From the NCBI RefSeq assembly GCF_900115265.1, contig NZ_FOVU01000006.1, positions 186,001 through 250,000 of the forward strand: a DNA stretch of 64,000 bases, read 5' to 3'. A model generated the notes under the pieces. It searched no databases, was not told the origin of the DNA, and saw only the letters and a list, made by a program, of their open reading frames with translations. The translations under genes were made by a program, and so were the position numbers. This document shows, in pieces, positions 26,807-45,766 of this stretch. Positions within the stretch are counted from its first letter, which is position 1. Each line of letters begins with the position of its first letter. The DNA comes from Bradyrhizobium sp. Ghvi (lineage in GTDB: Bacteria; Pseudomonadota; Alphaproteobacteria; Rhizobiales; Xanthobacteraceae).

Positions 26807-29590
26807 TCAGGCGCTGAGGCGCTGCCGCGAAGGCCTGGTGGCGCTTGCCGCACGGGCTTCGATGATTGCGGCGGGAAAATCACGGAAGGCCGGCGCGACC
26901 GGGATGTGATTGCTCGCAAGGTGAGGCGCGGTATAGCCGGTGATGTCGACGGTTGCGTCAAACCCTTCGAAGGCGGGCCATTCGCGGCCGGCTTGCGTGA
27001 AGGGAGCGAACTGGCGTGCGACCACGACGATCGCCGCGGTGCGGCCGCGGCGGCGAGCGAAGGCGATGACATGATCGGCGTGCGCGCCTTGGACGTCGAG
27101 CGGCTGGTAGTCCCCCTGTGCAAAGATGTCGGGCAATCCGTTACGCAGCTTGAGCAGGTGCCGCGTCCAGGCCAGCTTGAGGCGGCCGTCGGTCCGGGTC
27201 CTGGTCAGGGCGTGCCAATCCGGATTGTCCACCGCGCCCAGCGCCGCCTCTCGCGCGGCAAAATCCACCGGCCGGCGGTTGTCGGGATCGACCAGCGACA
27301 AGTCCCAGAATTCGGTGCCTTGGTAGAAATCGGGCACGCCCGGCAGTGTCGCCTTCAGCGTGAGCTGGCTCAGCGAATTCAGGGCGCCAAGCAGCGCGAC
27401 GCGCCGGGCGAGGGTCTGGAGCGCTTCCAGGAATTCGCCTGACAGTGCCGGATCGAGGATCCTGGCGATGAAGTCCTTGATGCCGCCCTCATATGCCTCG
27501 TGCGGATTGAGCCAGCTCGTCTCCTCCTTGCCTTCGCGTGCGGCTTTCAGCGCATAGGCCTGGATGCGCTCGACGAAGCTGGCGTCCGGTCCCTCGAGCG
27601 GCCAGGCGCCGAGCAGGGTCTGGTAGAGCATGTATTCGAAGGTTGCCGATGGCGCGCGCAGATGGCCGTGAAGCGCGAGATGCGGCGCGTTCAGCACCTT
27701 CCAGCGCGCCACCGCGCTGGTCCATTCGCCGGGGATCTCGCTGAGCGCGGCGATGCGCGCGCGGGCGTCCTCGCCGCGCTTGGTGTCGTGGGTCGCGGTC
27801 GCGGTCATCCCTTGCGGCCATTCCTTGGCGCGGGCGCGCATGGCCGCGTGGAAAGCGGGGATCGTGAGGCCCCTGCTCGCGGGGTCGCCGCCGACCTCGT
27901 TCAGCGCGAGCAGCCGATGGAATTGATAGAACGCGGTGTCCTCCAGCGACTTCGCCATGACAGGCCCGGTGAACTGCTGCACCTTCAGCGCGAAGCGGCG
28001 CACGCGCGGTGCACTGTGCGGCGGACGGCCGGGCTTGAGCAGGTCCATGGTCAGGGCATCGCGCAGGAAGTCGAAAATGCCTTCGTCGGCGGCGAACCAT
28101 TCGGCACGGGCACGCGCGATGGTGTCGTCGATCAGCTTGCGATCGAGGGCGGTCGGGCCGCTATGCGTCAGATAGGTGCGGTAGACCGGGAAGTGCAGCA
28201 CGTACAATTCGAGCGCCTGCCGCAGGCTGTCGGCGGAGAAATCACGGGTCGAATAGTGTCCGTTGGCGATGCGTGCGAGCAGGCGCGTCAGCACGATGAA
28301 TTCGCTGGTCAAGAGCGTTTCCAGCACGCGCCTTTTGGCCTCCTTGACGTAGGGCGCGAGTCGCGGCGGCCGGTTGCTGATCTGCCGCCAGGTTTCGTCC
28401 AGCGCATCCAGCCCCCTGGCATCGACCAGAACCTGAGTGATGGCGTTCATCCATTCATAGCCGGTGGTGCCTTGAACGCCGGCGAAGTGCGGCAGCGTTT
28501 CGTGCTCGCAAAGAATCTTTTCGATCGCGGTGTAGAAGGGTTTTGCGTTGCCCTGCGCGTCGCGCACCAGCCGGCGCAGCCGCTGGCAATATTGCGCGGG
28601 ATCGCGCAGGCCGTCGATGTGATCGAGACGGATACCCTGCAGCTTGCCCTCGGTGACGAGCTGCTTCACCAGCCGGTGCGTTGCTGCAAAGGTGCTCGCG
28701 TCCTCGACGCGCAGGCCGGCAAGGCCGTTGACGTCGAAGAAACGGCGATAGTTGATGTCGCTCGACGCAAGCCGCCAATGCCCGAGCTTGTAGTTCTGCC
28801 GTTCCAGCAGGTGATGCAGCGCCAGCGTCTGCGCCGGGCGATCCTTGGCGGCCCGGTAAGCGGCGAGGCCACGACTGATGATGTCGGCAGCGCCCGCGAT
28901 GTCCTTCAGCTCGGCCTTGAAGCCGGGGGCTTCCTTGCGGTTGGGGCGGCGCAAGCCGGTATAACGCGCAGCGAGTGAGAGCAGGCGCCTGCCGGCTTCG
29001 GTCCCGGCAGCGTCTGCCTCCTTGACGATCATCCGCAGGATCTCGCCATAGCGCTCCGGCGCGATCGGCAGCCGATGTTCGAAATACCAGGCGGAAAAGC
29101 TGCCTTCGCCGGGATCGTAGCGCAATTCGATGTCACCGCGCTCCAGAGCCTCGCCGTAGGACGACCCGAGGATCGGCAGCAGCACGCCGCCCCGGGCGCG
29201 GTAGGGCAATTGATCCCAGTCGATATCAAAGGAGACCGCATGCGGCGAGGCCTGGCCCCATTCCAGCACGTCCAGCCACCAGGGATTGTCGGAAAAATGC
29301 ACGCCGACATGGTTGGGCACGAAATCGATGATGAGCCCGAGATCGTGACGTGCCAGCGCTTCGCTCAGCCGCGCAAAACCGGCTTCGCCGCCAAGCTCGG
29401 GATTGAACTGGCTGTGATCGACCGTGTCGTAGCCGTGGGTCGAGCCCTTGCGCGCTTTCATCACCGGGGAAGCATAGAGATGGGTGATTCCCAGCGCCTT
29501 CAGATAGGGCACCACCGCGGCGGCCTTGTCGAAATCGAAATCCGAGGTGAGCTGCAGCCGATAGGTCGCAAGAGGAATCGCCGAAGGCAT
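26807..29590 (-). CDS. treY: Malto-oligosyltrehalose synthase TreY
   Basis: 927 residues, GH13. It isomerises the reducing-end alpha-1,4 bond of malto-oligosaccharides to the alpha,alpha-1,1 bond, giving maltooligosyl-trehalose for TreZ. Seen are the N-terminal PLATYRLQLTSDFDF, VPYLKALGITHLYASPVM, nucleophile region GIRLDHIDGLRDP, acid region TAIEKILCEHETLP and ATHDTKRGEDARARI. Catalytic residues are intact. GGAGG inside the end of treZ lies 5 nt before the ATG at 29590. It is the last gene of a six-gene leftward glucan/trehalose operon. Confidence 0.98.
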   Translation of the reverse strand: MPSAIPLATYRLQLTSDFDFDKAAAVVPYLKALGITHLYASPVMKARKGSTHGYDTVDHSQFNPELGGEAGFARLSEALARHDLGLIIDFVPNHVGVHFSDNPWWLDVLEWGQASPHAVSFDIDWDQLPYRARGGVLLPILGSSYGEALERGDIELRYDPGEGSFSAWYFEHRLPIAPERYGEILRMIVKEADAAGTEAGRRLLSLAARYTGLRRPNRKEAPGFKAELKDIAGAADIISRGLAAYRAAKDRPAQTLALHHLLERQNYKLGHWRLASSDINYRRFFDVNGLAGLRVEDASTFAATHRLVKQLVTEGKLQGIRLDHIDGLRDPAQYCQRLRRLVRDAQGNAKPFYTAIEKILCEHETLPHFAGVQGTTGYEWMNAITQVLVDARGLDALDETWRQISNRPPRLAPYVKEAKRRVLETLLTSEFIVLTRLLARIANGHYSTRDFSADSLRQALELYVLHFPVYRTYLTHSGPTALDRKLIDDTIARARAEWFAADEGIFDFLRDALTMDLLKPGRPPHSAPRVRRFALKVQQFTGPVMAKSLEDTAFYQFHRLLALNEVGGDPASRGLTIPAFHAAMRARAKEWPQGMTATATHDTKRGEDARARIAALSEIPGEWTSAVARWKVLNAPHLALHGHLRAPSATFEYMLYQTLLGAWPLEGPDASFVERIQAYALKAAREGKEETSWLNPHEAYEGGIKDFIARILDPALSGEFLEALQTLARRVALLGALNSLSQLTLKATLPGVPDFYQGTEFWDLSLVDPDNRRPVDFAAREAALGAVDNPDWHALTRTRTDGRLKLAWTRHLLKLRNGLPDIFAQGDYQPLDVQGAHADHVIAFARRRGRTAAIVVVARQFAPFTQAGREWPAFEGFDATVDITGYTAPHLASNHIPVAPAFRDFPAAIIEARAASATRPSRQRLSA

Positions 29591-29591
29591 A

Positions 29592-31346
29592 TCAACCTCC
29601 GAGGAGCCAGATCACCGACCAGGGTTGTAGCCGGTCGCGGGGTGCGCCGCCCCAGATCGGCGCGCCCGTCATGCTGCTGGAGTGTGCAACATCCTTGTCC
29701 GAAAGGTTGGCCACCAGACGCAGCGTCGCGCCGTCACCCATGCGCCAATGCGCGGTGAGTACGCCGTTGTCCGTTGCCTCGGCATTGCCGAAGCGCGCCC
29801 CTTTCAGCCGTGGCATGATCTCGTCGCGGCGAACTGCGAGCAGCTCGCGCACCAGCGCGAGCCGGGCATCCTGCTCCCGCGAGCGCCCCGTCCAGTCGAG
29901 CACGGCGGATTGACGCGTGGCCGGGTCGAGCGGATCGGGCACCTCGTCGCCATACTTCGCGTAGGCCCAGGCATATTCCTGCTTGCGGCCCTTGCGCACG
30001 GCGTCGGCGAGCCCGCCCTGGAAATCGCAGAAGAACGGGAAGGGGACTTTCGAGCCCCATTCCTCGCCCTGAAACAGCATCGGCACCATCGGGGCGAGTA
30101 ACGTCACCGCGAGTGCGGCCTCGATCTGCTCGGGCGATGCGAGGCTCTCGAGCCGCTCGCCGAGCGGCCGGTTGCCAATCTGGTCGTGGTTCTGCAGGAA
30201 ATTGACGAAGGTCGCCGGCGGTAGTTCGCCGCTCGGCTCGCCGCGGGGCTTCTTGCCCCAGAATTCGGAGATCTCGCCCTGGTAGACGAAGCCCGAAGCG
30301 AGCGCGCGCGCCAGATCCATGCGCGGCGTCTGATAGTCCGCGTAATAGCCGCCGTGCTCGCCGGTCAGCATCACGTGCCAGACGTGGTGGTAGTCGTCGT
30401 TCCACTGCGCGCGGTATTTGCCGTTCGGCGGCTCCTGCGCGGCGTCGAGCAGGCTGGCGCGGTTGTCGCCGTTCTCCAGCACGAGATGGATGTGCCGGCC
30501 CGTGGCCTTGGCGAGCTCGCCGGCGGCGACGCTGAGGTCTTGCAGCATCGACTGCTCGCCGGGGACAGCCATGATGTGGTTGGCGGCATCGAGCCTCAAG
30601 CCATCGAAGCGGTAGTCGGTGAGCCAGGACAACGCGTTCTCGACCGCGAAGGCCCGCACCTGCGGCACGCGATAATCGATCGTGCTGCCCCATGGCGTGT
30701 GCGCATCGGTGAAGAAATCAGGCGCGTAGCGGCCGAGATAGTTTCCTTCCGGGCCGAAGTGATTGTAGACGACGTCAAGAAACACCATCAGCCCGCGCAG
30801 ATGCGCTGCGTCGATCAGCGTCTTCAGCTCTTCGGGCCGGCCATAGGCACTCTCGGGCGCGTACCACAGCACGCCGTCATAACCCCAGCCGCGGCGGCCG
30901 GCGAAATCGGCCAGCGGCATCAGCTCCAGCGCGGTAATCCCGGTCGCGACGAGATGATCGAGCTTGTCGATCATGGCGCGGTAGCTTCCTTCCGCCGTGA
31001 AGGTGCCGACATGGGTCTCGATCAGCACCGTCTCTTCCCAAGGGCGGCCACGCCAATCCTTCGCGCGCCACGCGAAGGCATCGTGATCGATCACCTCGCT
31101 CGGGCCGAACACGTCCTCGGGCTGGAATGCCGAGGCGGGATCAGGCACGTCGATCTCGTCATCGATCCTGAACTTATAGGGACTGCCGACGGGCAGGCCG
31201 GCAATCTCGGCGACATACCATCCGTCCTGCCGGCGCTGCATCGCGTGTCGGCGCTCGAGCAGGAGATCGACCCGACGCGCACCGGGCGCCCACAAACGGA
31301 ACGATACGCCGTCCTTGGTCGGCTTCGCCCCGAACGATGGCCTCAT
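29592..31346 (-). CDS. treZ: Malto-oligosyltrehalose trehalohydrolase TreZ
   Basis: 584 residues, GH13. It hydrolyses the maltooligosyl-trehalose made by TreY and releases trehalose. An N-terminal CBM48-like domain (GVSFRLWAPGARRVDLLLER) precedes the barrel, which has VFLDVVYNHFGPEGNYLG, nucleophile FDGLRLDAANHI, acid Glu in HLVLENGDNRASLL and FLQNHDQIGNRPLGERL. The start ATG overlaps the glgX stop (ATGA). TreY starts 1 bp after its stop, so translation is coupled. All residues expected for activity are present. Confidence 0.97.
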   Translation of the reverse strand: MRPSFGAKPTKDGVSFRLWAPGARRVDLLLERRHAMQRRQDGWYVAEIAGLPVGSPYKFRIDDEIDVPDPASAFQPEDVFGPSEVIDHDAFAWRAKDWRGRPWEETVLIETHVGTFTAEGSYRAMIDKLDHLVATGITALELMPLADFAGRRGWGYDGVLWYAPESAYGRPEELKTLIDAAHLRGLMVFLDVVYNHFGPEGNYLGRYAPDFFTDAHTPWGSTIDYRVPQVRAFAVENALSWLTDYRFDGLRLDAANHIMAVPGEQSMLQDLSVAAGELAKATGRHIHLVLENGDNRASLLDAAQEPPNGKYRAQWNDDYHHVWHVMLTGEHGGYYADYQTPRMDLARALASGFVYQGEISEFWGKKPRGEPSGELPPATFVNFLQNHDQIGNRPLGERLESLASPEQIEAALAVTLLAPMVPMLFQGEEWGSKVPFPFFCDFQGGLADAVRKGRKQEYAWAYAKYGDEVPDPLDPATRQSAVLDWTGRSREQDARLALVRELLAVRRDEIMPRLKGARFGNAEATDNGVLTAHWRMGDGATLRLVANLSDKDVAHSSSMTGAPIWGGAPRDRLQPWSVIWLLGG

Positions 31347-33421
31347 AGCGCCCCCGCGAAGGCGAGCACGGAGCGCGGCGGCGCCTTGCTGTCGCTTCCG
31401 GGCAGGAAATCAACGCTGTTCAGCTTGGTATCCGTCGTGTTCAGGATCTGCTGCCAGCTTTTGTATTCGGGCATTTTGGGCAATTTGAATGCGATCTCTT
31501 CGGGGGCGGCGTTCAGTACGATAAAGATCGCCGCGCTGCCGGGTTCCATCGGCCCCATCACATAAGAGAGGAACCGCCCGTCCGGGAATGTCCAGTCGCT
31601 CTCCGTCATCTCGTTACCTTCGGGCGTCAGCCACAGCGCGCCGTAGGAGATGCCATCCTTCGGCCGGCCGTCGAGCCAGCGATGGCTGCGCAGCTGCGAG
31701 AAGCGGCGGCGGATGTCGGCGAGCTCGGCGACGAAATCGACCATGTCCTCGCCGTCCTTGCCAAGATTGTCCCAGCCGACCCAGCCAACCTCGTTATCCT
31801 GGCAATAGGCATTGTTGTTGCCGGACTGCGTGTTGCCGACCTCGTCGCCGGCAAGGATCAGGGGAATACCCTGCGCCAGCATCAGACAGGCCAGCGCATT
31901 CTTGCGCAGCTGCCGGCGCAGCGCGAGGATTTCGGGATCGTCGGTCGGCCCCTCGACACCGCAATTGTTGCTGTGATTGTCGTTGGACCCGTCGCGATTA
32001 TCCTCGCCGTTGGCTTCGTTGTGCTTCTCGTTGTAGCTGAAGAGGTCGGCAAGCGTGAATCCGTCATGCACGGTGATGTGGTTGATGCTGGCGCGCGGGC
32101 GCCGTCCGTCATGATTGAACAGATCGGAGGAGGCCGTCATGCGGCTGGAGATATCGCCGATCAGGCTGCCCTCGCCGCTCCAGTAGCGGCGCATGGCGCT
32201 GCGATAGCGGTCGTTCCACTCCGACCATTGCGAGGGGAAAGCGCCGACCTGATAGCCGCCGAGCCCAAGATCCCAGGGCTCCGCGACGAGCTTGACGGTG
32301 GCGAGCACCGGATCTTGCCTGATCGCGGTGAGAAACGCGATGCCACGATCGAAACCGTTCGGGCCGCGCGCAAGCGTTGTGGCGAGATCGAAGCGGAAGC
32401 CATCGACGTGACAGACCTCGACCCAGTAGCGCAAGCTATCCATCACCATCTGGAGCACGCGCGGATGGGTCAGGTTCACCGACGAGCCGCAGCCGGTGAA
32501 GTCGTCGTAGTAGCGCGGGTTCTCGCGGTTCAGCCAGTAATAGGAGGCGTTGTCGATGCCGCGATAGCACAGCGTCGGTCCGAGATGGTTACCTTCGGCC
32601 GTGTGATTGTAGACGACATCCAACATCACCTCGATACCGGCGTCGTGCAGGCGCGCGACCGTGGTACGAAAGGAATCGAGTGCATTGTCCTGGGCGTAGC
32701 GAGGCTCGGGCGCGAAGAAGGACAGGGTGTTGTAGCCCCAATAATTGGCAAGCTTCTTCTCGACCAGGATGCGGTCGTCGACGAAGCTGTGGATCGGCAG
32801 CAGCTCGATCGTGGTGACGCCGAGCTTCTTCAAATGCTCGATCATCGCGGGCGACGACAGGCCGCCATAGGTGCCGCGCAAATTCGGCGGCACGTCGTCG
32901 CGCTTCTGCGTCAGGCCCTTGACGTGGGCCTCGTAGATGATGGTGTCTTCCCAGGGGATGTTGGGACGAATCTCGCGCCGGCCCCAGTTGAAGGTCTCGT
33001 CGACCACGACCGCCTTGGGCATGCCGCGCGCATTGTCGCGCCGGTCGAACGACAAGTCCTCGCGCGCCGAGCCGGTGCGGTAGGCGAAATGCGCGTCGCT
33101 CCAGACGAGACGTCCGGCAAGGCGCTTCGCGTAGGGATCGAGCAGCAGCTTGTTGGCATTGAAGCGGTGGCCGTGCTCGGGCTCATAGGGGCCGTGCACC
33201 CGATAGCCGAAGAGCTGGCCCGGTGAGACGTCGTTGAGATAGCCATGCCAGACGTCCTCGGTGCGCTCCGGCAACTCGATGCGCTCGAGCTCGCGGCGTC
33301 CTTGGGTGTCGAACAGGCACAGCTCGACCTTTTGCGCATTGGCAGAGAACAGCGCGAAGTTGGTACCGCGGCCGTCCCAGCTTGCACCGAGGCGTGCGGG
33401 CGATCCAGCAGTCAGGCGCAT
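31343..33421 (-). CDS. glgX: Glycogen debranching enzyme GlgX (isoamylase type)
   Basis: 692 residues, GH13_11. It removes short alpha-1,6 branches, supplying linear malto-oligosaccharides that TreY and MalQ use. The CBM48 module (GTNFALFSANAQKVELCLFD) is followed by the barrel with MLDVVYNHTAEGNHLGPTL, nucleophile CHVDGFRFDLATTLAR, acid KLVAEPWDLGLGGYQVG, and TVHDGFTLADLFSYNEKHNE, where the HN-x(2)-N stretch is typical of GlgX. It starts 3 bp after the glgB stop and overlaps treZ by 4 bp. Confidence 0.97.
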   Translation of the reverse strand: MRLTAGSPARLGASWDGRGTNFALFSANAQKVELCLFDTQGRRELERIELPERTEDVWHGYLNDVSPGQLFGYRVHGPYEPEHGHRFNANKLLLDPYAKRLAGRLVWSDAHFAYRTGSAREDLSFDRRDNARGMPKAVVVDETFNWGRREIRPNIPWEDTIIYEAHVKGLTQKRDDVPPNLRGTYGGLSSPAMIEHLKKLGVTTIELLPIHSFVDDRILVEKKLANYWGYNTLSFFAPEPRYAQDNALDSFRTTVARLHDAGIEVMLDVVYNHTAEGNHLGPTLCYRGIDNASYYWLNRENPRYYDDFTGCGSSVNLTHPRVLQMVMDSLRYWVEVCHVDGFRFDLATTLARGPNGFDRGIAFLTAIRQDPVLATVKLVAEPWDLGLGGYQVGAFPSQWSEWNDRYRSAMRRYWSGEGSLIGDISSRMTASSDLFNHDGRRPRASINHITVHDGFTLADLFSYNEKHNEANGEDNRDGSNDNHSNNCGVEGPTDDPEILALRRQLRKNALACLMLAQGIPLILAGDEVGNTQSGNNNAYCQDNEVGWVGWDNLGKDGEDMVDFVAELADIRRRFSQLRSHRWLDGRPKDGISYGALWLTPEGNEMTESDWTFPDGRFLSYVMGPMEPGSAAIFIVLNAAPEEIAFKLPKMPEYKSWQQILNTTDTKLNSVDFLPGSDSKAPPRSVLAFAGAL

Positions 33422-33424: not shown

Positions 33425-35572
33425 TCAGCTTTCCGGAACGAGGAAGATCGCAGCGAGCGGTGGAACCGTGAGGCGGAGCTCGGGCGCCTTACCGGCAACG
33501 GTCTGGACCTCGCCGATGTTCCCGACATTGGTTCCGCCATAATGGGCGGAGTCCGAATTGAACACCTCTTTCCACTTGCCGGCAAAGGGCACGGGGACGC
33601 GGTAGTTGCGATAGACATTGGGCGAGAAGTTGACCACCACCAGACACCGCGCGTGCTCGTCAAATCCCTTGCGCAGCCACGCGAACACGTTGCGGTTGGC
33701 ATCATCGGTGATCAGCCATTCGAAGCCGGCCTGGTCGCAATCCATCTGGTGCAGTGCGGGCACCGCGCGATAGAGCCGGTTGAGGTCGCGGACCAGCGCC
33801 TGGATGCCCTGATGGTACTTGTATTCGAGCAGGTGCCAGTCGAGCGACTGGTCGTGATTCCATTCGCGGCTCTGCGCGATCTCGCCGCCCATGAACAGCA
33901 GCTTCTTGCCGGGATGGCCGAACATGAAGCTGTAATAGGCACGCAAATTTGCGAAGCGCTGCCATTCGTCGCCCGGCATGCGGCCGAAGATCGAGCGTTT
34001 GCCGTGCACGACCTCGTCATGCGACAGCGGCAGGATGAAATTTTCCGAGAAGGCGTAGTGCAGGCCAAACAGGATCTCGCCGTGATGGTATTTGCGGTGG
34101 ATCGGATCCTTGCTGATGTAGTTCAGCGTGTCGTGCATCCAGCCCATGTTCCACTTGTAGCCGAAGCCGAGCCCGCCGAATTCCACGGGACGCGAGACCT
34201 GCGGCCAGGCAGTCGATTCCTCGGCCGCCGTGGTCGCCTGCGGAAAACGCGCGAACAGCTCGGTGTTGAAGCGGCGCAGGAAGTTGATTGCCTCGATGTT
34301 CTCGCGGCCGCCATACTGGTTCGGAATCCAGGCGCCGGGCGGGCGGCTGTAGTCGAGGTACAGCATGGACGCGACCGCATCGACCCGCAGGCCGTCGATG
34401 GCGTAGCGCTCCAGCCAGAACAGCGCATTCGAGACCAGGAAGTTGGTCACTTCGGTGCGGCCGTAATTGTAGATCAGCGTGCCCCAATCGAGGTGGCGGC
34501 CCTGGAGCGGGTTGGCGTGCTCGTAGAGCGAGGTGCCGTCAAAGTGGCCGAGCCCGTGCGGATCGTCGGGGAAATGGCCGGGCACCCAGTCGAGCAGCAC
34601 GCCGATGCCTTCGCGATGGCAGGCGTCGATCAATGCGGCAAAATCCTCGGGCGAGCCGAAGCGGCTGGTCGGGGCGTAGAGGCCGGTCGGCTGATAGCCC
34701 CAGGAGCCGTCGAACGGATGCTCGCTCACGGGCAGGAATTCGAGATGGGTGAAGCCCATGTCGCGCGCATAGGCCGGCAGCTGCTCGGCGAGCTCGCGAT
34801 AGGTCAGCCATTCATTGCCGTCCTTGCGCCGCCACGAGCCGAGATGGACCTCGTAGATCGACATCGGCGCCGACAGCGCGTTGATGCCGTCGGGCGCGGG
34901 ACGCGGCCGCGGCAGGTGCGCTTCGTCGAACACGATGGAGGCCGTCTTCGGCCGCAGCTCGGTCGCAAATGCCAGCGGGTCGGATTTCAGCGGCAACAGA
35001 TGGCCGTGCGGCCCGATGATTTCGAACTTGTAGTGGTCTCCGGGCTTGGCGTTCGGGACGAACAATTCCCAATAGCCGGCGCCGCGCACCCGCATCGGGT
35101 GACGCCGCCCGTCCCAGAAATTGAAATCGCCGACTACCGACACGCGCCGCGCATTCGGCGCCAGTACGACGAAGCCGATTCCGTCGACGCCTTCGAGCCG
35201 CATCGGATGCGCGCCGAGCTTGTCGTAGATGCGCTGATGGGTGCCTTCGCCGAGCAAATAGAGGTCGAAATCGGACAGGATCGTCGGAAACCGGTAGGCG
35301 TCCTCGAACTCGACGACGTTGTCCCCGAACTTTGCGCGGAGCTGATAGTGCTTCGAGCCATTCGGCAGCGCGCCGATGAACAGGCCGGAATCGTGAACAC
35401 GGTCGAGCTTGGCGACCTCGCCATGCTCGCCGACCGCTTCGACGTTGGTCGCTTCGGGCAGGAACGCGCGCACCACGCTCTTGCCTCCCTCGGGATGCAG
35501 CCCGAGATAGTGGAAGGGGTCGGAGTGGCGCCCCTCGATGATCGCATAGGCTTCGGCAGGCAGTTTAGGCAT
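33425..35572 (-). CDS. glgB: 1,4-alpha-glucan branching enzyme GlgB
   Basis: 715 residues, GH13_9. The N1-like and CBM48 modules ([35 protein letters not shown]) precede the barrel, which carries [20 protein letters not shown], nucleophile [19 protein letters not shown], acid [19 protein letters not shown] and [13 protein letters not shown]. All GlgB signatures are intact. It creates alpha-1,6 branches in the glucan, normally downstream of GlgA or GlgE. The start lies 8 bp inside the end of the treS-mak gene. No glgA or glgC is in the window, which makes the GlgE-like neighbour important. Confidence 0.98.
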
Positions 35573-38500
35573 GGGCTTCGCTCACGGCACTGGACAGAAT
35601 GCGAAGCAGGCCGGTCAGCGGCGCATGGAGCCCCTCAGGCCGGTGGGACAGCTCGTACTCTACCTCGTCGAACGCTTGATCAAGCAGGAAAAACCTTAAC
35701 ATGCTTTCCGCGGAAAGGTTCTCTTCCGGCCAGAGCCGTCGGTCGGTCATGGCCTCGCGGTAGGCGGACAGGAAGGTCGCGGTGGCATGTTTGCGCCATT
35801 CGTCGAGCGCGGTGGCAATCCGGTCCTGTTCGTCACTCCCGCCCGACAGCGCCCGGGTAAGCGCCGCGTTAACCGAAAGATCAATCGAGCGGACCAGGCC
35901 CGCGACGTCGCGCGCGGCCGGTAGCCTGCGCCACTTGTCGGCCAGCGCCAAATGTGGATCGCCGTCGAAGTCGATGATGAAGATGTCATCCTTCACGATC
36001 AGAGTTTGCCCGAGACGGAAGTCGCCATGATGACGGATGTTCAACCCGCCAACGTCGGATGGCAAGAGCGCGCTGATATGGTCCGGCAAGGTCGTACGCA
36101 ATGCGACGAGTTGATCGATCAGCGGACGGTCGGCTTCGCGCAGGCCGTCCCGGCTGTTGGCGAGCTGGTCGAGAACACGTTCCGCGCGTGTCTTGAGATC
36201 GATCGTCCAGCGCTTGACGTCCGCAGGACCGATCGGTTCGGGAGCAAGGTCGGCGGATCCTGCGGCGGCGAGCGCCATGTGCAGCTCGGCGAGCCGGCGG
36301 CCGATCTGGGCCATGAAGTGCAGATAGGGTGCCTGCTCCTGGGTCTCGCGGTGGGTTTCACCCGCTGGCAACACCCGTTGCTCGTCGATATAGCGGTCGA
36401 GATAGCCCGTGGTGACGGTCCAGCCATCCCCCTGGTTCTCGACATAGGCATGCAGCACGCCGAGCGCGCTGCTTCTGTCGCCCTCGACCAGCTCGACGCT
36501 GCCGAGCAGCGCCGGCGTGTTGGGAAAGCGCGCGACCTCCGTGAGATAGCGGCCGATCTCGATCTCCGGGTTGGCACCGCTTTCGAGCCGGCGATAGATC
36601 TTGGCGACATATTGGTTGTCGACCAGCGCAGTGCTGTTCGACTGCTCGACCGCCCGGATGCGCGCGGGCTCCTTCACGATGTAATCGGCGAAGCGGCTGG
36701 TCGGCTTGAACTCCAGCCGCAGATTGTTCTCTTCCACCACCAGGTTCTGCGACAAGCCGCGCAGGAAAAGCCCGATGAAGATCTGGTCGGTAGCGACATC
36801 GAGCAGCGTGCCTTCGCGTGCGCCCTGGCGCACCGCGGCGAGTGCCTTCGGGTTGAAGCGCTCGCGGTCGAAACGTACCCACTCGATCTGCATCGGCAGC
36901 ACGTAACGCGTTGTGACGTCGTCCTGCCCCGTCTCGAAAAAGGCGATCCAGGGCCTGTTGTCGCCGATGTCGCTGAAGGGCACCGCTGATGTCAGTGTAG
37001 CCTTGATGTGCTTGGGATTGTGCTCGGGATACCACCGCGTCCGTGACAGGAAGCCCGGCAGCACCTCGCGCTCGAACACGCCGCGCTCGCGAGCGAGCGA
37101 GACCCAGTTCGAATTCACCGGCACGACCAGCGTCTCGAATTCCGGCACCGCGCGCGGCACGACCGGCTCGGACTTGTCGCGCTCCTGGAGCTGGAACCAG
37201 TAGAAGCCGTAAGGCCCCAGCGTGATCATATAGGGCAGTTCGCCGATCGCCGGAAAACGGGTACGTCCCAGCATCTCCTGCGGGATGCGGTCCTTCCACG
37301 GCGACAGATCGAGCTCGGTCGCCTGCGCCGCGCGGGAGAGGTTGGCGACGCAGAGGATCACTTCGTCGCGGTATTGGCGGACATAGGCGAGCACGGCGCG
37401 GTTGGCCGGGCGGATGAAGGTCATGGTGCCGCGGCCGAAGGCCAGCGTCGACTTGCGCACCGAGATCAGCCGCTTGGTCGCGTTGAGCAGCGACGACAGG
37501 CTGCGCGACTGCGCCTCCACATTGACCGAATCGTAGCCGTAGACCGGATCCATGATAGGCGGGGCGTAGAGGCGGGCGGGATCGGCGCGGGAGAAGCCGC
37601 CGTTGCGGTCCGGGCTCCACTGCATCGGCGTGCGCACGCCATTGCGATCGCCGAGATAGATGTTGTCGCCCATGCCGATCTCGTCGCCGTAATAGATGAT
37701 CGGCGTGCCCGGGAATGACAGCAGCAGCGAGTTCATCAACTCGATCTTGCGTCGGTCATTGTCCATCAGCGGCGCAAGCCGCCGGCGGATGCCGACATTG
37801 ATGCGGGCGCGTGGATCGTTGGCATAGGTGGTCCAGAGATAGTCGCGCTCGACGTCGGTGACCATCTCCAGCGTCAGCTCGTCATGGTTGCGCAGGAACA
37901 GCGCCCATTGGCAACTCGCAGGGATATCGGGCGTCTGGCGCAGGATGTCGGTGATCGGAAAGCGGTCCTCCTGCGCGATTGCCATGTAGATGCGCGGCAT
38001 CAGCGGGAAGTGGTAGGCCATGTGGCATTCGTCGCCGCGGCCGAAATATTCCTGAACGTCCTCGGGCCATTGATTGGCCTCGGCCAGCAGCAGCTTGCCC
38101 TTCGAGTAGGCGTCCAACTCCTGGCGCAGCCGCTTGATGATCGCGTGCGTCTCGGGGAGGTTCTCGTTCGAGGTGCCCTCGCGCTCGCAGAGATACGGAA
38201 TGGCATCCAGCCGGAAGCCGTCGACACCGGCATCCAGCCAACGCTTCATCACCTGGATGATGGCGCTGACGACGCGCGGATTGTCGAAATTGAGGTCCGG
38301 CTGGTGCGAGAAGAAGCGGTGCCAGTAGAACGCGCCGGCCTCGGGATCCCAGGTCCAGTTCGACTTCTCGGTGTCGGTGAAGATGATCCGCGTGCCCTGG
38401 TATTTCTGGTCGGTGTCGCTCCAGACATACCAATTGCGAGCACTCGAGCCCGGATGGCTGCGGCGCGCGCGCTTGAACCATTTGTGCTGGTCCGACGTGT

Positions 38501-38858
38501 GGTTGACCACCAGTTCGGTGATGACGCGCAAGCCCCGCTTCTGCGCCTCCTGGATGAAGCGCTTGAAATCCTTCATGGTCCCGAAGTCGGGATTGATCGA
38601 ACCGTAGTCCGCGATGTCGTAGCCGTCGTCGCGGCCGGGCGAGGGATAGAACGGCAGCAGCCAAAGTGCGGTGACGCCCAGATCCTGCAGATAGGGCAGC
38701 TTCTCGGTCAGCCCGGCAAAATCGCCGATTCCGTCATTGTTGCTGTCGGCGAAGGCCTTGACGTGGAGCTGGTAGATGATGGCGTCCTTGTACCAGAGCT
38801 CATCCACGATCTCGGCAGCCTCAGCCTTCTTGGTGTCGACGGAAGACAGAACATTCAT
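35565..38858 (-). CDS. treS: Trehalose synthase-maltokinase fusion (TreS-Mak/Pep2)
   Basis: About 1097 residues, two enzymes in one chain. Residues about 1-560 are a GH13_16 TreS (trehalose-maltose isomerase) with nucleophile Asp218 in [11 protein letters not shown], acid Glu260 in [12 protein letters not shown] and [12 protein letters not shown]. From about residue 640 a maltokinase follows with [12 protein letters not shown] (Brenner motif) and [12 protein letters not shown] (Mg site), making maltose-1-phosphate from ATP. Both halves keep their key residues. The ATG at 38858 has AGGGG 7 nt upstream. The gene lies 11 bp after the GlgE-like gene, the layout of GlgE-pathway clusters. Confidence 0.97.
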
Positions 38859-38869: not shown

Positions 38870-40816
38870 TTACGCCAGGCAGCGGAACACGAGCGCCGGA
38901 TCGCGGTCGGGATCGATACGCAACCTGATCCCGCCCCATTCGATGCGGGACTGTTCGCCTGTCATGAGATTCTCGAGTGTCGTGACGTGGCGGCGTTCGC
39001 CGCCGACTTCGATGGTGAGGTCGCCGAGCGGCAACCAGAATTCGCGTACGTGGCGCGACAGGGCGATGGCTGCGACGACCGTGTTGGCCGGTTCGGCTGC
39101 CTCCTTCACGAAGGCGATAGTCTCGCCGTCCTCGATGCCCAGGAAGCGCAGGTTGACGGTCTGCTGCAGCGCCGCGTTGTCGTTGCGGATGCGGTTGAGC
39201 GCCGCGATGTAGGCCTTGATGTTGCCGGGTTTGTCCCAGTCGCGCTGGCGGATCTGGTACTTCTCGGAATCCAGATATTCTTCGTGGCCCGCGACGGCCT
39301 CGTGCTCGAGCAGCTCGAACCCGCTGTAAAGGCCGTAATTGCCGGACAACATGGCGGCCAGCGCGACGCGCGACTTGAACATCCAGCTTTCACCGCTCTG
39401 GAGATGATAAGGCAAGAGGTCCGCGGTGTTGACGAACAGATGCGGGCGATAGAAGTCGCGCTCCGGATAGCCGGTCATTTCGCCGAGATATTGCTCCAGC
39501 TCCCACTTTCCGGTGCGCCAGGGGAAATAGCTGAAGGACTGCGAGAAGCCGAGCTTGGCGAGGCCCTTCATCAGCTTCGGCCGCGCAAACGTCTTGGAGA
39601 ACAGGATCACCTCCGGATGCCGCGAGCGGATGTCGCGGATCAGCCACTCCCAGAACGGAAGCGGCGCGGTGTCGTGGTTGTCGATCGCGAAGATGGTGAC
39701 GCCATGATCGATCCAGAACAGCATGGCATCGCGGAATGCATTCCACAGCCCAGCCCGGTCGACCGAGGCGAAATCGGGGATCACGATATCCGAATACGGA
39801 CCATCCGCCGTCCGCACCGAACGGTCCGGCCGCCATTTGAACCATTCCGGATGCTGCGTCAGCCAGGGGTGGTCCGGCGAGCATTGCACGGCGAAATCGA
39901 GCGCGAGCTCGACCCCGTATTCGAGGCACGTGGCGACCAGCGCGCGGAAATCCTCGATGGTGCCGAGCTCGGGATGCAGGCCGTCGTGGCCTCCCTCGGC
40001 CGCGCCAATGGCGTAGGGCGAGCCCGGCTCGCCTTCGGTCGCGACAGGCGCATTGTTGCGGCCCTTGCGCCTGGTGCGGCCGATCGGATGGATCGGCGTG
40101 AAATACAGGACGTCAAAGCCCATCGCCGCGATATCGGGCACGCGCGCGATGCAGTCGCGGAGCGTGCCGTGCCGGCCGGCGACTTGGCTCTGACTGCGCG
40201 GCATCATCTGATACCAGGCGCCGAAGCGCGCTCTGTCGCGGTCGATGACAAGCGGGAAATTCCGTGAGCGGGTCAGGTCGGGGCGCGCCTGGCTCTCGGC
40301 CATGGCTTCGCTGAGATCAGCGGCAAGCAGCGGCGCAACGTCGCCGCTGCCGAGATAGTCCTCGCATTGCCTCGCTATCACGGCCGCGGCGTCCTGTCGC
40401 GCGCCGTGCGCCTTGGTCAGCAGGCCCGCGCCCTCGATGGCATCGAGCGTGACATCGCCGCCGGCCAGCTGCTTGCGTTCGAGCCCGTGACGCCAGGTGG
40501 CGAATTCGTCGGTCCAGGCTTCGATGGCATAGACATATTGGCCTGCTTCGGTCGGCACGAACGCACCGGACCAGCGGTCATCGCCGTGATGGGTCATGGT
40601 CTCGCGCCGCCATTCCCGCTCCTGCTCGCCACGCCAGACCAGCGCGGCGCTGATGGTGGCATCGCCGTCGCGATAGATATCGGCCCATACCTCGACCCGA
40701 TCGCCCGCGATCCGCTTCACGGCGAAGCGGCCGCCGTCGATCGAGGGATAGACGTCTTCGATCAGGAAAGCGCTGCCGGCAGCGGCACTCTCGACAGTTT
40801 GAATTGTCTTGTTCAC
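38870..40816 (-). CDS. glgE: GlgE-like maltosyltransferase homologue with substituted catalytic residues
   Basis: About 648 residues. The architecture is full GlgE (DUF3416 N-domain from [22 protein letters not shown]13_3 barrel, C-domain), with clear family landmarks such as [20 protein letters not shown] and [17 protein letters not shown]. Active GlgE has FRVDNPHTKP; here it is [10 protein letters not shown] (nucleophile Asp379 kept, Arg lost). Active GlgE has AEAF or SEAF; here it is SKTF, so the general-acid Glu is Lys408. The PPKKYQDI phosphate loop is DGPYSDI, without Lys. Asp466 (NTADLL) remains. GTG 40816 is the likely start, since a longer frame to 41008 would span the promoter. Activity as maltose-1-phosphate transferase is doubtful. 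Confidence 0.85.
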
Positions 40817-41020: not shown

Positions 41021-42982
41021 ATGGACCTTTTAGCTCAAGCCCGGATGAAGGGCGTCCAGTCCGAATTCGTCGATGCGCTCGGAAAGCTGCGGGTCACCGC
41101 GCCCGAGGCACTCAAATCCATCCTCGACGCCCTGCCCGAGAAGCGGGTCTATCGCTTCGCCAGCGGGCCGGTCGTGGTGCGCGCGCTGGGTAATCCGCGC
41201 ACCGAGCTTGCGGCCATCGGCACAGCGCCGCTGCGGTGGAAAATCGCCGGCAATGGCCACCTGATTGCACAGGGCGAGACGCGTGAGCCCGTGATCGCAT
41301 GGCCCGCCGGCCTGCCGCTCGGCTATCACCGGCTGACGCTGACCGATGCCGGTGGCGCGTCGGAAGAGGTGCCGATGATCGTCGCACCCGAACGGGCCTT
41401 CGGCGGCGATTTCGACCGCGGCTGGCTGCTCGCCGTGCAGCTCTACAGTGTCCGCTCGAACCGCAATTGGGGCATCGGCGATTTCACCGATCTGGCCGGC
41501 CTCGTCAGGCTGGCAAAACAACTGGGCGCCGATGGCGTCGGCCTCAATCCGCTGCATGTCCTGTTCGACGACCAGCCGGGCGATTGCAGTCCTTACTCGC
41601 CGAACAGCCGGCTGTTTCTCAACCCGCTCTACATCGACGTCGAGGCCATCCCCGAATTTTCGGCAGACCTCATTCCGGACGCGGCTGCGACCGCCGCGCG
41701 GCTGCGCGAAGGCGACCGCGTCCCCTATGCCGATATGGCGGCGCTGAAATGGCTGGGCCTGCGTGCCGCCTTTGACAGTTTCGTGAAAAGCGCGAGCGGC
41801 GTCCGCCGCAACAGGTTCGATGCTTTCCGCGCCGACCGGGGACCCCTGTTGTCGCGCTTTGCCTGTTTCGAGGTGCTGCGGCATCGCTTCAATAGACCAT
41901 GGTGGGAATGGCCGGCCGAATGGCAGCAGCCGGACGATGCCAAATGCGCTGCCTTGCGCAACGGCCCCGACAAGCGCGAGGTCGAGTTCGTCGAATTCGT
42001 GCAATGGACCGCTGACGCGCAACTGCACGCGGCCAAGCAGCTCTCGGCCGAGCTCGGCATGCGCGTCGGGCTCTATCTCGACGTCGCCGTCGGCGTACAG
42101 TCCAACGGCTTCGATGCCTGGAACGAGCAGACGGCGATCTCCCGCCACCTTGCGGTCGGAGCGCCACCCGACGTGCTCAACACCGTCGGGCAGGACTGGG
42201 GCCTGGCCGGCTTCAACGCGGGCGGCCTGGAGGCTCAATCTTTTGTACCCTTCGCCGACATGGTGGCCGCCTCGATGCGCCATGCCGGTGCCATCAGGCT
42301 CGATCACGTGCTGGGCCTGAAGCGGCTGTATCTGGTGCCGCGCGGCTTCAAGCCCGACAACGGCGCCTATGTGCAGATGCCGCTGGAGGCATTGCTCGCC
42401 GCGGTGGTGCGCGAGAGCGTCGCGCACAAATGCATCGTGATCGGCGAGGACCTCGGCACGGTTCCGGAAGGGTTTCGCGAGACCATGCAGGATTTCGGCA
42501 TCTGGTCGTACCTCGTCATGATGTTCGAGCGCGACGATGCCGGCCATTTCCGCAATGTCGATCATTACCGGCCGAACGCGCTGGTGACGCTGAACACGCA
42601 TGATCTCTGCACCTATGCGGGCTGGCGCTCGTTCGGCGATCTCAGGATGAAGCGGTCGCTCGGTCTCGATCCCGGCGAGGACGACCAGGCCCGCTGGAAT
42701 GCGCTCGGCGGGCTCGACGAGATCCTGCGGCAGAATGGCATCAACGCCAACGATCTCTATTCGGTGCTGACCTTCCTGTCGCGCACGCCGTCGCGGCTGC
42801 TGGCGGTCTCGATGGAGGATCTGCTCGGGGTGGTCGACCAGCCCAACATTCCCGGCACGATCGACGAGCACCCGAACTGGCGCCAGCGCCTGCCTGTCGC
42901 GCTCGACAAGATCGCGACCAAGATCGATCTCGCGGCTTTGAAGGCCGCGACGCGGGAACGTTCGCTGCACGGTGGGAGTTGA
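41021..42982 (+). CDS. malQ: 4-alpha-glucanotransferase MalQ (amylomaltase)
   Basis: 653 residues, GH77. It transfers glucan chains between malto-oligosaccharides and releases glucose. A short N-terminal extension (to about residue 130) precedes the barrel: LLAVQLYSVRSNRNWGIGDF, LNPLHVLFDDQPGDCSPYSP, GLYLDVAVGVQSNGFDAW, nucleophile IRLDHVLGLKRLYLVPRG, acid IVIGEDLGTVPEGF and TLNTHDLCTYAGW. All are intact. It is divergent from the glgE-treY operon and 30 bp ahead of the GH15 gene, with which it is probably co-transcribed. It would recycle the short maltodextrins left by TreYZ and GlgX. Confidence 0.96.
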   Translation: MDLLAQARMKGVQSEFVDALGKLRVTAPEALKSILDALPEKRVYRFASGPVVVRALGNPRTELAAIGTAPLRWKIAGNGHLIAQGETREPVIAWPAGLPLGYHRLTLTDAGGASEEVPMIVAPERAFGGDFDRGWLLAVQLYSVRSNRNWGIGDFTDLAGLVRLAKQLGADGVGLNPLHVLFDDQPGDCSPYSPNSRLFLNPLYIDVEAIPEFSADLIPDAAATAARLREGDRVPYADMAALKWLGLRAAFDSFVKSASGVRRNRFDAFRADRGPLLSRFACFEVLRHRFNRPWWEWPAEWQQPDDAKCAALRNGPDKREVEFVEFVQWTADAQLHAAKQLSAELGMRVGLYLDVAVGVQSNGFDAWNEQTAISRHLAVGAPPDVLNTVGQDWGLAGFNAGGLEAQSFVPFADMVAASMRHAGAIRLDHVLGLKRLYLVPRGFKPDNGAYVQMPLEALLAAVVRESVAHKCIVIGEDLGTVPEGFRETMQDFGIWSYLVMMFERDDAGHFRNVDHYRPNALVTLNTHDLCTYAGWRSFGDLRMKRSLGLDPGEDDQARWNALGGLDEILRQNGINANDLYSVLTFLSRTPSRLLAVSMEDLLGVVDQPNIPGTIDEHPNWRQRLPVALDKIATKIDLAALKAATRERSLHGGS

Positions 42983-43012: not shown

Positions 43013-44809
43013 TTGTCACGGATCGAGGACTACGCGTTGATTGGCGACTGCGAGACCGCAGCGCTGGTGGGGCGCAACGGCTCGATCGACTGGCTGTGCT
43101 GGCCCGCCTTCGATTCCGACGCCTGCTTTGCCGCGATCCTCGGCACGCACAGGAACGGCCGCTGGCTGGTCGCGCCGAGCGAGGACGCGACTGCGATCTC
43201 GCGCCGCTATCTCGGCGACACCCTCATCCTGGAAACACGCTTTGAAACGAAGAGCGGCGCCGTTGCGCTGATCGATTTCATGCCGCCGCGCGGCAAGGCG
43301 TCCGACATCGTGCGGCTGGTACGCGGCCTCGAGGGCGCCGTGAAAATGCGGATGGAGCTCGTGCTCCGCTTCGGCTTCGGCGTTGATATTCCCTGGGTGC
43401 GGCGGATCGACCATTCGCTGCAGGCGATCGCCGGGCAGGACATGACGGTGCTGCGCACGCCGGTGAAGACGCGCGGCGAGGACCTGACCACGGTCTCCGA
43501 GTTCGAGGTGAAAGCCGGCGAGACCGTGCCATTCGTGCTGACCTACGGTCCCTCCCACCTCAACCCGCCCGAGTCGATCGACCCGGAGACCGCCCTTCGG
43601 GAGACCGAGAAGTTCTGGGAGGAGTGGTGCAGCCATTGCACCCGCGACGGTCCGTATCACGACTTGATCGTGCGCTCGCTGATCACGCTGAAGGCGCTGA
43701 CGTTCGGTCCGACCGGCGGCATCGTCGCCGCGCCCACCACCTCGCTGCCGGAAAAACTCGGCGGCAGCAGGAACTGGGATTACCGCTTCTGCTGGCTGCG
43801 CGATGCCACCTTCACGCTGCTGGCGCTGATGAACTCCGGCTACACCGAGGAGGCCTCGGCCTGGCACAATTGGCTGCTGCGCGCCGCAGCCGGCTCGCCC
43901 GCCAACATGCAGATCATGTACGGCATCTGGGGACAACGGCGGCTGCTGGAATGGGAGGCGGGCTGGCTCGATGGCTATGAGGGCGCGCAGCCGGTGCGCG
44001 TCGGCAATGCCGCGCATGCGCAGCTTCAGCTCGACGTCTACGGTGAGTTGATCGACGCCTTCCACCAGTCGCGCATGGCCAAGCTCAGGCTGGACGAGGA
44101 GAGCTGGGCGCTGGAATGCGCCGTGCTCGACCATCTCGCCGAGGTCTGGGATCATCCCGACCACGGCATCTGGGAGCGCCGCGGCGAGCCGAAGCACTAC
44201 GTCTTCTCCAAGGTGATGACCTGGGTTGCCTTCGACCGGGCGATCAAGAGCGCCGAGACGTTTGGCTTCAAGGCGCCGCTGTTGCACTGGCGCACCTTGC
44301 GCGAGGCCATTCATCGCGACGTCTGCAACAGGGGATTTGACGCGGAGGAGAATACGTTCGTTGAGTCCTACGGCTCGAAACTGCTCGATGCCAGCCTGCT
44401 GCTGTTGCCGGGCGTCGGCTTTCTTCCGCCGGAGGACCCGCGGATCCGCGGTACCATCGCGGCCGTCGAAAAGCACATGATGCGCGACGGTTTCGTGCTG
44501 CGGCATGATCCGCGCGAACTGGCTTCGGGGCAGCCGCCGCTCGAAGGCGCCTTCCTGGCCTGCAGCCTGTGGCTCGCCGATGCCTATGTGTTGTCGGGCG
44601 ATCCCGACAAGGCGCAAGTCTTGTTCGACCGCGTGGTCGGGATCGCCAACGATGTCGGATTGTTGGCCGAGGAATATGATTCAGGCGCGAAGCGCCAGAC
44701 CGGCAATTTCCCGCAGGCGCTGACGCACATCGCCCTGGTCAACACCGCGCACAATCTCTCGGCGGCCCGGCAGAAGAGCGAGAAACCGGCGATGCAGAGG
44801 TCGAAGTAA
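43013..44809 (+). CDS. GH15 family glucoamylase/trehalase-like protein
   Basis: 598 residues. The N-terminus IEDYALIGDCETAALVGRNG with SIDWLCWPAFDS is shared with GH15 proteins that include the mycobacterial trehalases. The (alpha/alpha)6 barrel has LGGSRNWDYRFCWLRDATFT and, near the end, TGNFPQALTHIALVNTA. It is probably an intracellular alpha-glucosidase, since there is no signal peptide. Trehalase or glucoamylase activity cannot be separated by eye. If it is a trehalase, the locus would both make and degrade trehalose. The start appears to be a TTG at 43013, because no ATG or GTG precedes the conserved SRIEDY in frame. Confidence 0.88.
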   Translation: MSRIEDYALIGDCETAALVGRNGSIDWLCWPAFDSDACFAAILGTHRNGRWLVAPSEDATAISRRYLGDTLILETRFETKSGAVALIDFMPPRGKASDIVRLVRGLEGAVKMRMELVLRFGFGVDIPWVRRIDHSLQAIAGQDMTVLRTPVKTRGEDLTTVSEFEVKAGETVPFVLTYGPSHLNPPESIDPETALRETEKFWEEWCSHCTRDGPYHDLIVRSLITLKALTFGPTGGIVAAPTTSLPEKLGGSRNWDYRFCWLRDATFTLLALMNSGYTEEASAWHNWLLRAAAGSPANMQIMYGIWGQRRLLEWEAGWLDGYEGAQPVRVGNAAHAQLQLDVYGELIDAFHQSRMAKLRLDEESWALECAVLDHLAEVWDHPDHGIWERRGEPKHYVFSKVMTWVAFDRAIKSAETFGFKAPLLHWRTLREAIHRDVCNRGFDAEENTFVESYGSKLLDASLLLLPGVGFLPPEDPRIRGTIAAVEKHMMRDGFVLRHDPRELASGQPPLEGAFLACSLWLADAYVLSGDPDKAQVLFDRVVGIANDVGLLAEEYDSGAKRQTGNFPQALTHIALVNTAHNLSAARQKSEKPAMQRSK

Positions 44810-44953: not shown

Positions 44954-45766
44954 TCAACCCACCCCATTCCGCTTCAGGATCATCTCCATCGCCTCGGCAA
45001 AACCGTCCTGCTCGTTGGTCGCGGTGACGTGGGTAGCCTGATCCTTGACGTTATCAGCGGCATTGCCCATGGCGATCGAAGTGCCGCTGACGCTGAACAT
45101 CGCGAGGTCGTTCTGCATGTCGCCGATGGTGGCGACCGCATCCAGGGAAATGCCGAGGCGCTTGGCCATGGCCTGCACGAACGTGCCCTTGTTGAAGCCG
45201 GGTGGGGTGATGTCGAGATAATAGGTCTGCGATCGCACCGCGGTGGCCTCGCTGCCGAGCGCCTGCTGCATCGTCTTCTCGCAACGTTCCAGACCTGCCG
45301 CATCGGCGCTGGCGCCGACGATCTTGCAGGCGCTGGCAAGGTACGGGGTGAAGTCCGTCACGATGGTGGGATCGGCGCGGATCGTGTGCTGCTCGTGGGC
45401 AACGTAGCTGCCGCGCGGATTGTCGATCAGCCATTTGTCGGCGGTGAAGAGCCAGATATCGGCGCCGAACTCCCGGAGGATATGCAGGGACCGCTCCGCG
45501 GCCCCCGGCGGAATCAGGTGCTGCTCGACCGGCCTCATCTCGGGGTCGATGATCGAGGAACCGTTGAACGGGCCGACCGGAAGCCACAGCGCCAGCGGGT
45601 CGATCAGGAAGCGCATGCCGATCGCGGGGCGGCTGGAGGTGATGGTGAAACCGATGCCGGCCTGGTGCAACCGCTGCACCGCGCTCCGCGCGCGCACCGT
45701 CAGCGTCTTGTCCTTGGTCAGCAGCGTGCCGTCGACGTCCGAGACCACGAGTGAGATTTTCGTCAT
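44954..45766 (-). CDS. HAD-superfamily Cof-type phosphatase
   Basis: 270 residues, HAD class IIB. Motif I is VVSDVDGTLLTKD (nucleophile and acid Asp), motif II lies in TITSSRP, motif III Lys in PGFNKGTFVQAMAKRLG, and motif IV is TIGDMQNDLAMFSVSGTSIA. A C2B cap is inserted between motifs II and III. It is probably a sugar-phosphate phosphatase. It overlaps gntK by 4 bp (ATGA) as the last gene of the pentose-phosphate operon, so a substrate such as a phosphogluconate-related or pentose phosphate is plausible but unproven. Confidence 0.9.
   Translation of the reverse strand: MTKISLVVSDVDGTLLTKDKTLTVRARSAVQRLHQAGIGFTITSSRPAIGMRFLIDPLALWLPVGPFNGSSIIDPEMRPVEQHLIPPGAAERSLHILREFGADIWLFTADKWLIDNPRGSYVAHEQHTIRADPTIVTDFTPYLASACKIVGASADAAGLERCEKTMQQALGSEATAVRSQTYYLDITPPGFNKGTFVQAMAKRLGISLDAVATIGDMQNDLAMFSVSGTSIAMGNAADNVKDQATHVTATNEQDGFAEAMEMILKRNGVG

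Follow-up and report, generated by a model that had tools for sequence, protein, structure and literature searches.

Can a GlgE homologue whose general acid/base residue has been replaced still transfer maltosyl units from maltose-1-phosphate? This question is raised by a gene of Bradyrhizobium sp. Ghvi that lies in a stretch of 64,000 nucleotides, hereafter the window. Gene names credit these Bradyrhizobium, including records labelled japonicum and diazoefficiens, with the full trehalose-to-glycogen GlgE pathway. Judging from the sequences compared here, the pathway implied by these names probably does not run in many Bradyrhizobium, soybean symbionts included, and the proteins are probably kept for another purpose.

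The GlgE homologue and its operon

We refer to GlgE homologues with a lysine at the acid position, among them the window protein, as V type or GlgE*, and to the maltokinase domain of their operons as Mak*. The sequence of the window protein was confirmed, [26 protein letters not shown] and NTADLL both being present in its open reading frame. It has the N/S domain and the full-length homology of GlgE (GH13_3 alpha-1,4-glucan:maltose-1-phosphate maltosyltransferase), matching Pfam GlgE_dom_N_S with E=5e-53 and the crystal sequences of Streptomyces coelicolor GlgE (3zss/5vsj; phmmer) with E ~1e-140 over residues 18 to 644. A treS-mak fusion and glgB are linked to it, as in a GlgE pathway operon, and the TreS and GlgB proteins of the window gave family matches well above the cut-off. 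With GlgE* at the head, the gene order is GlgE, TreS-Mak, GlgB, GlgX, TreZ, and TreY, while MalQ and a GH15 protein are divergent (Table 1). The first-pass annotation, which had placed a GlgE homologue in a GlgE pathway operon, was thus correct on this point.

Table 1. Features of the glgE* operon and its neighbours in the window
Feature	Position	Strand	Remarks
V-type GlgE homologue (GlgE*)	38870..40816	-	648 aa, GTG start
GlgE* Lys408 codon	39593..39595	-	replaces general acid/base Glu423 (S. coelicolor numbering)
GlgE* codons 377-384, AIDNHDTA	39665..39688	-	nucleophile Asp379 kept; Arg392->Ala, Lys399->Ala384; new His381-Asp382 replaces Pro396-His397
GlgE* codons 338-343, DGPYSD	39788..39805	-	shorter phosphate loop lacking Lys355; Asn352 replaced; Tyr357 and Asp359 retained
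GlgE* Asp466 codon	39419..39421	-	transition-state stabiliser (Asp480); 106/106 V proteins
TreS-maltokinase fusion	35565..38858	-	putative start set at Met28 of a 1124-aa ORF, near alignment onset of several homologues
TreS-Mak Arg975 codon	36015..36017	-	Mak catalytic loop HGDFR; replaces sugar-binding His307 (M. vanbaalenii) / His324 (M. tuberculosis numbering)
Mak DFDGD	35958..35972	-	canonical DFEGE; Mg Asp990 kept; Glu324->Asp, Glu326->Asp
GlgB branching enzyme	33425..35572	-	
GlgX debranching enzyme	31343..33421	-	
TreZ	29592..31346	-	
TreY	26807..29590	-	
MalQ (GH77)	41021..42982	+	divergent neighbour; adjoins V, canonical and RW operons
GH15 trehalase-like protein	43013..44809	+	neighbour in most operons read

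A search of the genome to which the window belongs (7.9 Mb, 100% complete) revealed no second GlgE, the sole other match being 34% identical over residues 169 to 322, and a single maltokinase domain. An EcfG-type promoter pattern matched the window three times, against a chance mean of 1.88, and never in the stretch 5' of glgE*. A HAD-type hydrolase gene (44954-45766) adjoins the operon and is followed by pgl-zwf-gnd-like genes; these neighbours recur in an operon of the RW type described below (L096) and partly in other operons read.

Residues changed and retained in GlgE* and its partner maltokinase

The functional positions of GlgE, 24 mapped sites in all, were taken from the available text of two studies (PMC4526890, PMC5076824). 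We read 205 full-length, one-piece GlgE loci, genes in two or more pieces having been left out beforehand, and these represent 157 distinct proteins. Lysine occupies the acid position in 106 of them (V) and glutamate in 51, the latter comprising 44 proteins of canonical type (including a decayed one, L087, and a type of about 60% identity) and 7 of a second Bradyrhizobium clade, RW.

The alignment of the window protein with S. coelicolor GlgE is ungapped across beta4-beta5 and pairs Ala377 with Arg392, Asp379 with Asp394, Asp382 with His397, Lys408 with Glu423, and Asp466 with Asp480. The losses of the -1 arginine, the acid glutamate, and the phosphate-site lysine that had been read from the window alone were therefore borne out by alignment with characterized GlgE proteins and Bradyrhizobium homologues, and the same states recur in all V proteins; likewise, the nucleophile and the stabiliser do remain. 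In the V proteins (n = 106), Glu423 is always lysine, Pro396-His397 always His-Asp, and Lys399 always alanine, while Arg392 is alanine in 105 and threonine in one. Four further V genes, which lie outside the codon counts given below, agree in Lys408 and His-Asp; one of them has threonine at 384 and phenylalanine at 341. Sequencing error or a one-off mutation was rejected, given that these states are common to 106 distinct proteins. The V change marks a clade and not one odd gene.

Of the Asp/Glu/Asp catalytic set of GH13_3, then, the two aspartates are present and the glutamate is replaced. The site that binds the phosphate of maltose-1-phosphate in GlgE consists of Asn352, Lys355, Tyr357, and Asn395 (PMC4526890). 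The window protein retains the tyrosine and Asn395 and has lost Asn352 and Lys355, three residues (Pro-Lys355-Lys) being missing from its phosphate loop compared with S. coelicolor. Across the V proteins, Asn352 is either replaced (glycine in 96) or missing. A full-length loop (AEGPSGKYQD and similar), with Asn352 and Lys355 already glycine, persists in L057, L059, and L183, which are basal within V; the catalytic swap therefore preceded the shortening of the loop.

Despite these differences, GlgE* resembles S. coelicolor GlgEI in most of its remaining sites. Asn380 (Asn395), Asp466 (Asp480), Tyr341 (Tyr357), and Trp433 (Trp448) are invariant in the 106 V proteins, Gln324 is present in 105, and the nucleophile Asp379 (Asp394) in 104. 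The -2 maltosyl pocket (Lys264, Asn268, Asp359, Lys534, and Tyr535) is preserved: Lys251, Asp343, Lys519, and Tyr520 occur in every V protein, Asn255 (Asn268) in 98, and Ser266 (Val279/Ser) in 101. The acceptor platform formed by Trp448, Arg449, Tyr445, and Pro428 is also recognizable, with Arg449 in 101 and Tyr445 in 103 V proteins. Because an AlphaFold model of GlgE* built from 37 sequences was poor (mean pLDDT of 50.8), the side-chain positions discussed here rest on the alignment.

The partner kinase is altered as well. The first-pass annotation had stated that Mak keeps its residues, which is wrong: the window protein carries Arg975 in place of the sugar-binding histidine and DFDGD in place of DFEGE. 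This catalytic-loop histidine lines the proposed sugar pocket of maltokinase and binds sugar in maltokinase and glucosamine kinase (PMC4306142, PMC6520443). It is arginine in all 85 V loci read (some genomes possibly being counted twice). All 45 Glu-type loci, among which are the decayed L099 and two loci of the 60% type, have histidine, as do all 8 RW loci. The residue equivalent to Trp441 of M. tuberculosis is glycine or alanine in the eight V C termini read and tryptophan in 42 of 43 Glu-type loci, the exception being L099. In V, the DFEGE motif is replaced by DFDG plus a variable last residue (D, N, H, or G), and in RW by DFDGG, with a change in the P-loop too. Compared with the Mak/Pep2 structures of M. 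vanbaalenii, M. tuberculosis, and M. smegmatis, Mak* has thus lost its sugar-binding residues but keeps the kinase core, with HGD, the Mg aspartate, Gln310, and Lys149 each present in 85 of 85 loci and a P-loop that is mostly kept, although its serine drifts.

Codon counts were made on 80 V and 42 Glu-type Mak loci, with one unbroken match each and with duplicates and L099 removed. In V, they gave N=0, S=33 for the kinase core, N=0, S=11 for Arg975, and N=7, S=6 for Glu326. Given the unchanged core, the constrained Arg975, and the drifting Glu326, it is the sugar side of Mak that was altered and not its ATP core. Wherever both genes of a V or Glu-type locus were read, the states of GlgE and Mak went together. 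The earlier worry that Mak would make maltose-1-phosphate for which there is no consumer is undercut, because the sugar pocket of Mak is changed in all of the V loci read.

In the DFD loop and DFDGNP, the actinobacterial glucosamine kinase SjGlcNK resembles V-type Mak. However, SjGlcNK has the histidine (D-x-H) and the signature Q-x2-RE-x2-YA-x3-LP-x-W (PMC6520443), and V-type Mak has neither; the corresponding motifs are HGDFR in V and [16 protein letters not shown] in the window. We thus rejected the identification of Mak* as a glucosamine kinase, the signature being absent from the V C termini read.

Distribution, ancestry, and constraint

A GlgE match was found in 122 of 146 genomes of the genus (only a short amylase-like match in 7 of these) and in 105 of 198 genomes drawn from the family, some of which belong to the genus itself. 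Outside the genus, full-length matches in family genomes are at most 66% identical. Two family genomes, G242 and G273, have two full-length matches each, 56 to 58% identical to the window protein. All V proteins come from Bradyrhizobium: the labels of 80 loci (78 V) read Bradyrhizobium, including japonicum, diazoefficiens, yuanmingense, and liaoningense, with one Bradyrhizobiaceae MAG. A plasmid search returned 208 records with homologues, of which 9 were 60 to 80% identical and 199 below 60%; the 30 listed were all below 50%.

In both the GlgE and the TreS trees, which hold 28 and 22 of the V rows, respectively, the V proteins form one clade with a canonical sister, L187. The V stem measures 0.25 against 0.11 for the sister in the GlgE tree and 0.024 against 0.064 in the TreS tree; deep branching in the GlgE tree is poorly supported. 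Since V adjoins L187 inside Bradyrhizobium in both trees, acquisition from outside is not favored. Nor is a single origin for the changes of V and RW, because the two fall in different clades of the TreS tree. The long-branched L087 stands beside RW in the GlgE tree (83/97), away from its place in the TreS tree, and its position is unsure for this reason.

The V genes are under purifying selection. Pairwise dN/dS was 0.186 for 28 V pairs versus 0.197 for 28 pairs of a comparison set that includes two RW operons. The dN ratio of GlgE to GlgB was 2.74 in V versus 1.80 in that set, making GlgE somewhat faster in V; TreY and TreS-Mak, relative to GlgB, are also somewhat faster. By codon parsimony within V, the five swapped codons gave N=1, S=38 (p=1.6e-6 versus the gene-wide N/S of 0.52), the -2 pocket N=5, S=86, and the acceptor positions N=9, S=54. 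For the phosphate loop (codons 337 to 342) we obtained N=37, S=95 (p=0.07), and on these counts the loop is relaxed. Over the 24 mapped sites there were 30 replacements in V and 1 in the canonical set, which makes V the less constrained of the two overall at the former functional positions. Against 43 Glu-type proteins, a set without the decayed L087 and the RW rows, V has fifteen fixed differences, and 5 of them lie within the 24 mapped sites (p=1e-4). None of the 157 one-piece genes, from which split genes had been left out beforehand, contains an internal stop. Decay of the V gene was rejected by dN/dS and codon steps.

The nucleophile itself is valine or alanine in two V proteins, L053 and L136, which form a clade (support 100/99) and differ at 55 positions. 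Their dN/dS is 0.135; among 381 V pairs with similar dS, the median is 0.156. Loss of the nucleophile under such constraint argues that the selected function, at least in these two, needs no GH13 nucleophile. The two losses are possibly independent and recent.

We classed the 146 genus genomes by residues read in every V (77 genomes, one with its gene in pieces), canonical-operon (19), and RW (14) gene. GlgC scored over the cut-off in 76 of the 77 V genomes, the remaining one (G054) having a split match, and in 3 of 19 canonical-operon, 14 of 14 RW, 2 of 5 other, and 7 of 31 GlgE-less genomes. GlgA was over the cut-off in 143 of 146. L187, the canonical sister of V in both its GlgE and its Mak, comes from a MAG of unstated completeness with no GlgC over the cut-off. 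The association of GlgC with V reflects few independent events, so that its Fisher test value exaggerates the strength of the link, and GlgC is not sufficient, because three canonical-GlgE genomes carry it too. These sequence patterns suggest that GlgC-GlgA synthesis took the load off the GlgE route, which was then rebuilt in V, altered in RW, and is now being lost in one genome (G082).

Possible roles of GlgE* and Mak*

At the level of sequence, the coupled remodelling of GlgE and Mak, the purifying selection on retained and new residues, and the association with GlgC are established. As to what the proteins do, our preferred reading, which we give an even chance, is that lineages making glycogen by GlgC-GlgA gave up the maltose-1-phosphate branch and kept GlgE* as a sugar-binding pseudoenzyme. 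GlgE* would be a GlgE orthologue remodelled a single time in the ancestor of a large Bradyrhizobium clade that has GlgC-GlgA glycogen synthesis, the sugar pocket of its partner maltokinase being remodelled along with it. GlgE* would no longer carry out maltosyl transfer from maltose-1-phosphate, Mak* would no longer make this sugar, and the Lys408/Asp382 pair would turn the former catalytic site into a binding site. The protein might then act as a maltosyl- or alpha-glucan-binding sensor, scaffold, or acceptor guide in the trehalose-glycogen machinery of the operon.

We prefer the pseudoenzyme because V has lost the acid, the -1 arginine, and (in one clade) the nucleophile but still has its binding residues. 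Moreover, crystals of the S. coelicolor E423A variant have malto-octaose bound over subsites -2 to +6 (PMC5076824), and an acid-less GlgE is therefore able to bind glucan across its active site. Against this preference, the constraint on the new -1-site residues is near that of a working active site and would fit a new enzyme equally; both catalytic aspartates are kept almost throughout V, and the looseness of the 24 mapped sites does not speak for it either. In addition, the Mak* core, free of replacements, may still phosphorylate something, and the link to GlgC comes from few events, with the three canonical-GlgE genomes as exceptions. The first-pass annotation had proposed a pseudoenzyme or scaffold, or else a transferase with a changed mechanism. 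This proposal stands and gains strength, the loss of the acid and phosphate sites being clade-wide, fixed, and under purifying selection; the loss of the nucleophile in a constrained subclade favors, though not decisively, a noncatalytic role over a changed transferase.

The main rival, to which we assign a minor but real share of the probability, is that GlgE* represents a new type of active enzyme, in which the acid/base role would have passed from position 423 (now Lys instead of Glu) to position 397 (now Asp instead of His, adjoining the new histidine), with Asp382 next to His381 taking over. Its donor would tentatively be an unphosphorylated glucan and not maltose-1-phosphate, making it a disproportionating transferase or a hydrolase. 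The charge swap is fixed (H382D and E408K, each in 106 of 106), the new residues are strongly constrained, His397 of S. coelicolor lies at the +1 sugar and gave the sole variant with a significantly different apparent kcat (PMC5076824), and GlgE of Pseudomonas aeruginosa disproportionates maltohexaose (PMC8084333). It is conceivable, though on balance unlikely, that the sugar sites of Mak and GlgE changed together on one branch and that GlgE* is a functional GH13 enzyme in which acid and base have exchanged positions. The missing nucleophile of L053 and L136 and the lost -1 arginine count against this, and Asp382 would have to lie within reach of the scissile oxygen. An improbable alternative is a coupled change of substrate, with a different sugar as the substrate of Mak* and its phosphorylated product used or sensed by GlgE*, giving a two-step module with new chemistry. 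The intact Mak* core, the constrained Arg975, and the strict coincidence of the GlgE and Mak changes would fit such a module, but a relaxed phosphate loop ill suits a phosphorylated donor, Glu326 and the P-loop serine drift, and the glucosamine kinase signature is absent from the V C termini examined.

That GlgE* is a drifting relic of the GlgC-GlgA takeover, retained fortuitously or because its translation is coupled to that of treS-mak, we consider highly improbable. The co-occurrence of GlgC with V, the decay seen nearby in L087, and a V genome (G077) with its GlgE gene in two pieces would agree with a relic, yet dN/dS in V differs little from the value in the comparison set, the swapped codons already disfavor it, and the one-piece genes are free of stops. 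The reading we trust least is that GlgE* remains a maltose-1-phosphate maltosyltransferase, phosphate being a good leaving group and another residue serving as base. Nearly all V proteins do keep the nucleophile, the stabiliser, and the -2 pocket; however, the phosphate site is lost and relaxed, one clade lacks the nucleophile, the Mak sugar site is changed in all V loci read, and in S. coelicolor loss of Glu423 abolishes activity (PMC5076824).

The amino acid transporter heavy chains rBAT and 4F2hc are GH13-like proteins that have the fold without the full catalytic set and act in binding or assembly and not as enzymes. Unlike GlgE*, they are animal membrane proteins and are not encoded in a glycogen operon. 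In the open PMC literature, we found no paper on GlgE as a pseudoenzyme and none on a GH13 maltosyltransferase whose catalytic residues are not conserved.

In V, sugar sites are rewired at both defining steps, the making and the use of maltose-1-phosphate, and metabolic models would change with them. This rewiring is compatible with the view, reported for Bradyrhizobium diazoefficiens, that TreS runs from trehalose to maltose (PMC8092242). If a relocated acid/base and a rebuilt Mak were true, there would be an undescribed step between trehalose, maltose, and glycogen in Bradyrhizobium. The canonical, RW, V, nucleophile-less, and decayed proteins form a natural series of one enzyme losing or changing its chemistry.

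Several members of this collection deserve a description of their own. In the RW clade (L076-L082 and L294-L300 for GlgE; L096, L103, L242-L246, and L249 for Mak), Asn352 is histidine, Lys355 glutamine, and Tyr357 tryptophan in 14 of 14 genomes, with an intact catalytic triad including the acid glutamate; all 8 Mak domains read combine DFDGG with a P-loop Ser136->Pro change. From its sequences, RW seems to have lost the handling of maltose-1-phosphate independently, in genomes that carry GlgC. In L087, from G082, Tyr357, His397, Pro428, Tyr445, Trp448, Arg449, and Tyr535 are all changed, so that little of the acceptor platform is left, its Mak (L099) is altered too, and its median dN/dS is 0.25 against canonical proteins, compared with 0.16 among these themselves. 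L087 and L099, in a GlgC-carrying genome, thus likely represent decay and are serviceable as a control. In G077, GlgE and TreS-Mak are each in two pieces (L100, L075), which may be an assembly error or recent decay. Finally, G053 and G109 harbor a separate locus type (L097, L101), where GlgE shows about 60% identity and is split into two pieces in G109, the maltokinase match shows about 40%, and GlgX is encoded on the opposite strand, the other operon genes being absent from the 20 kb read.
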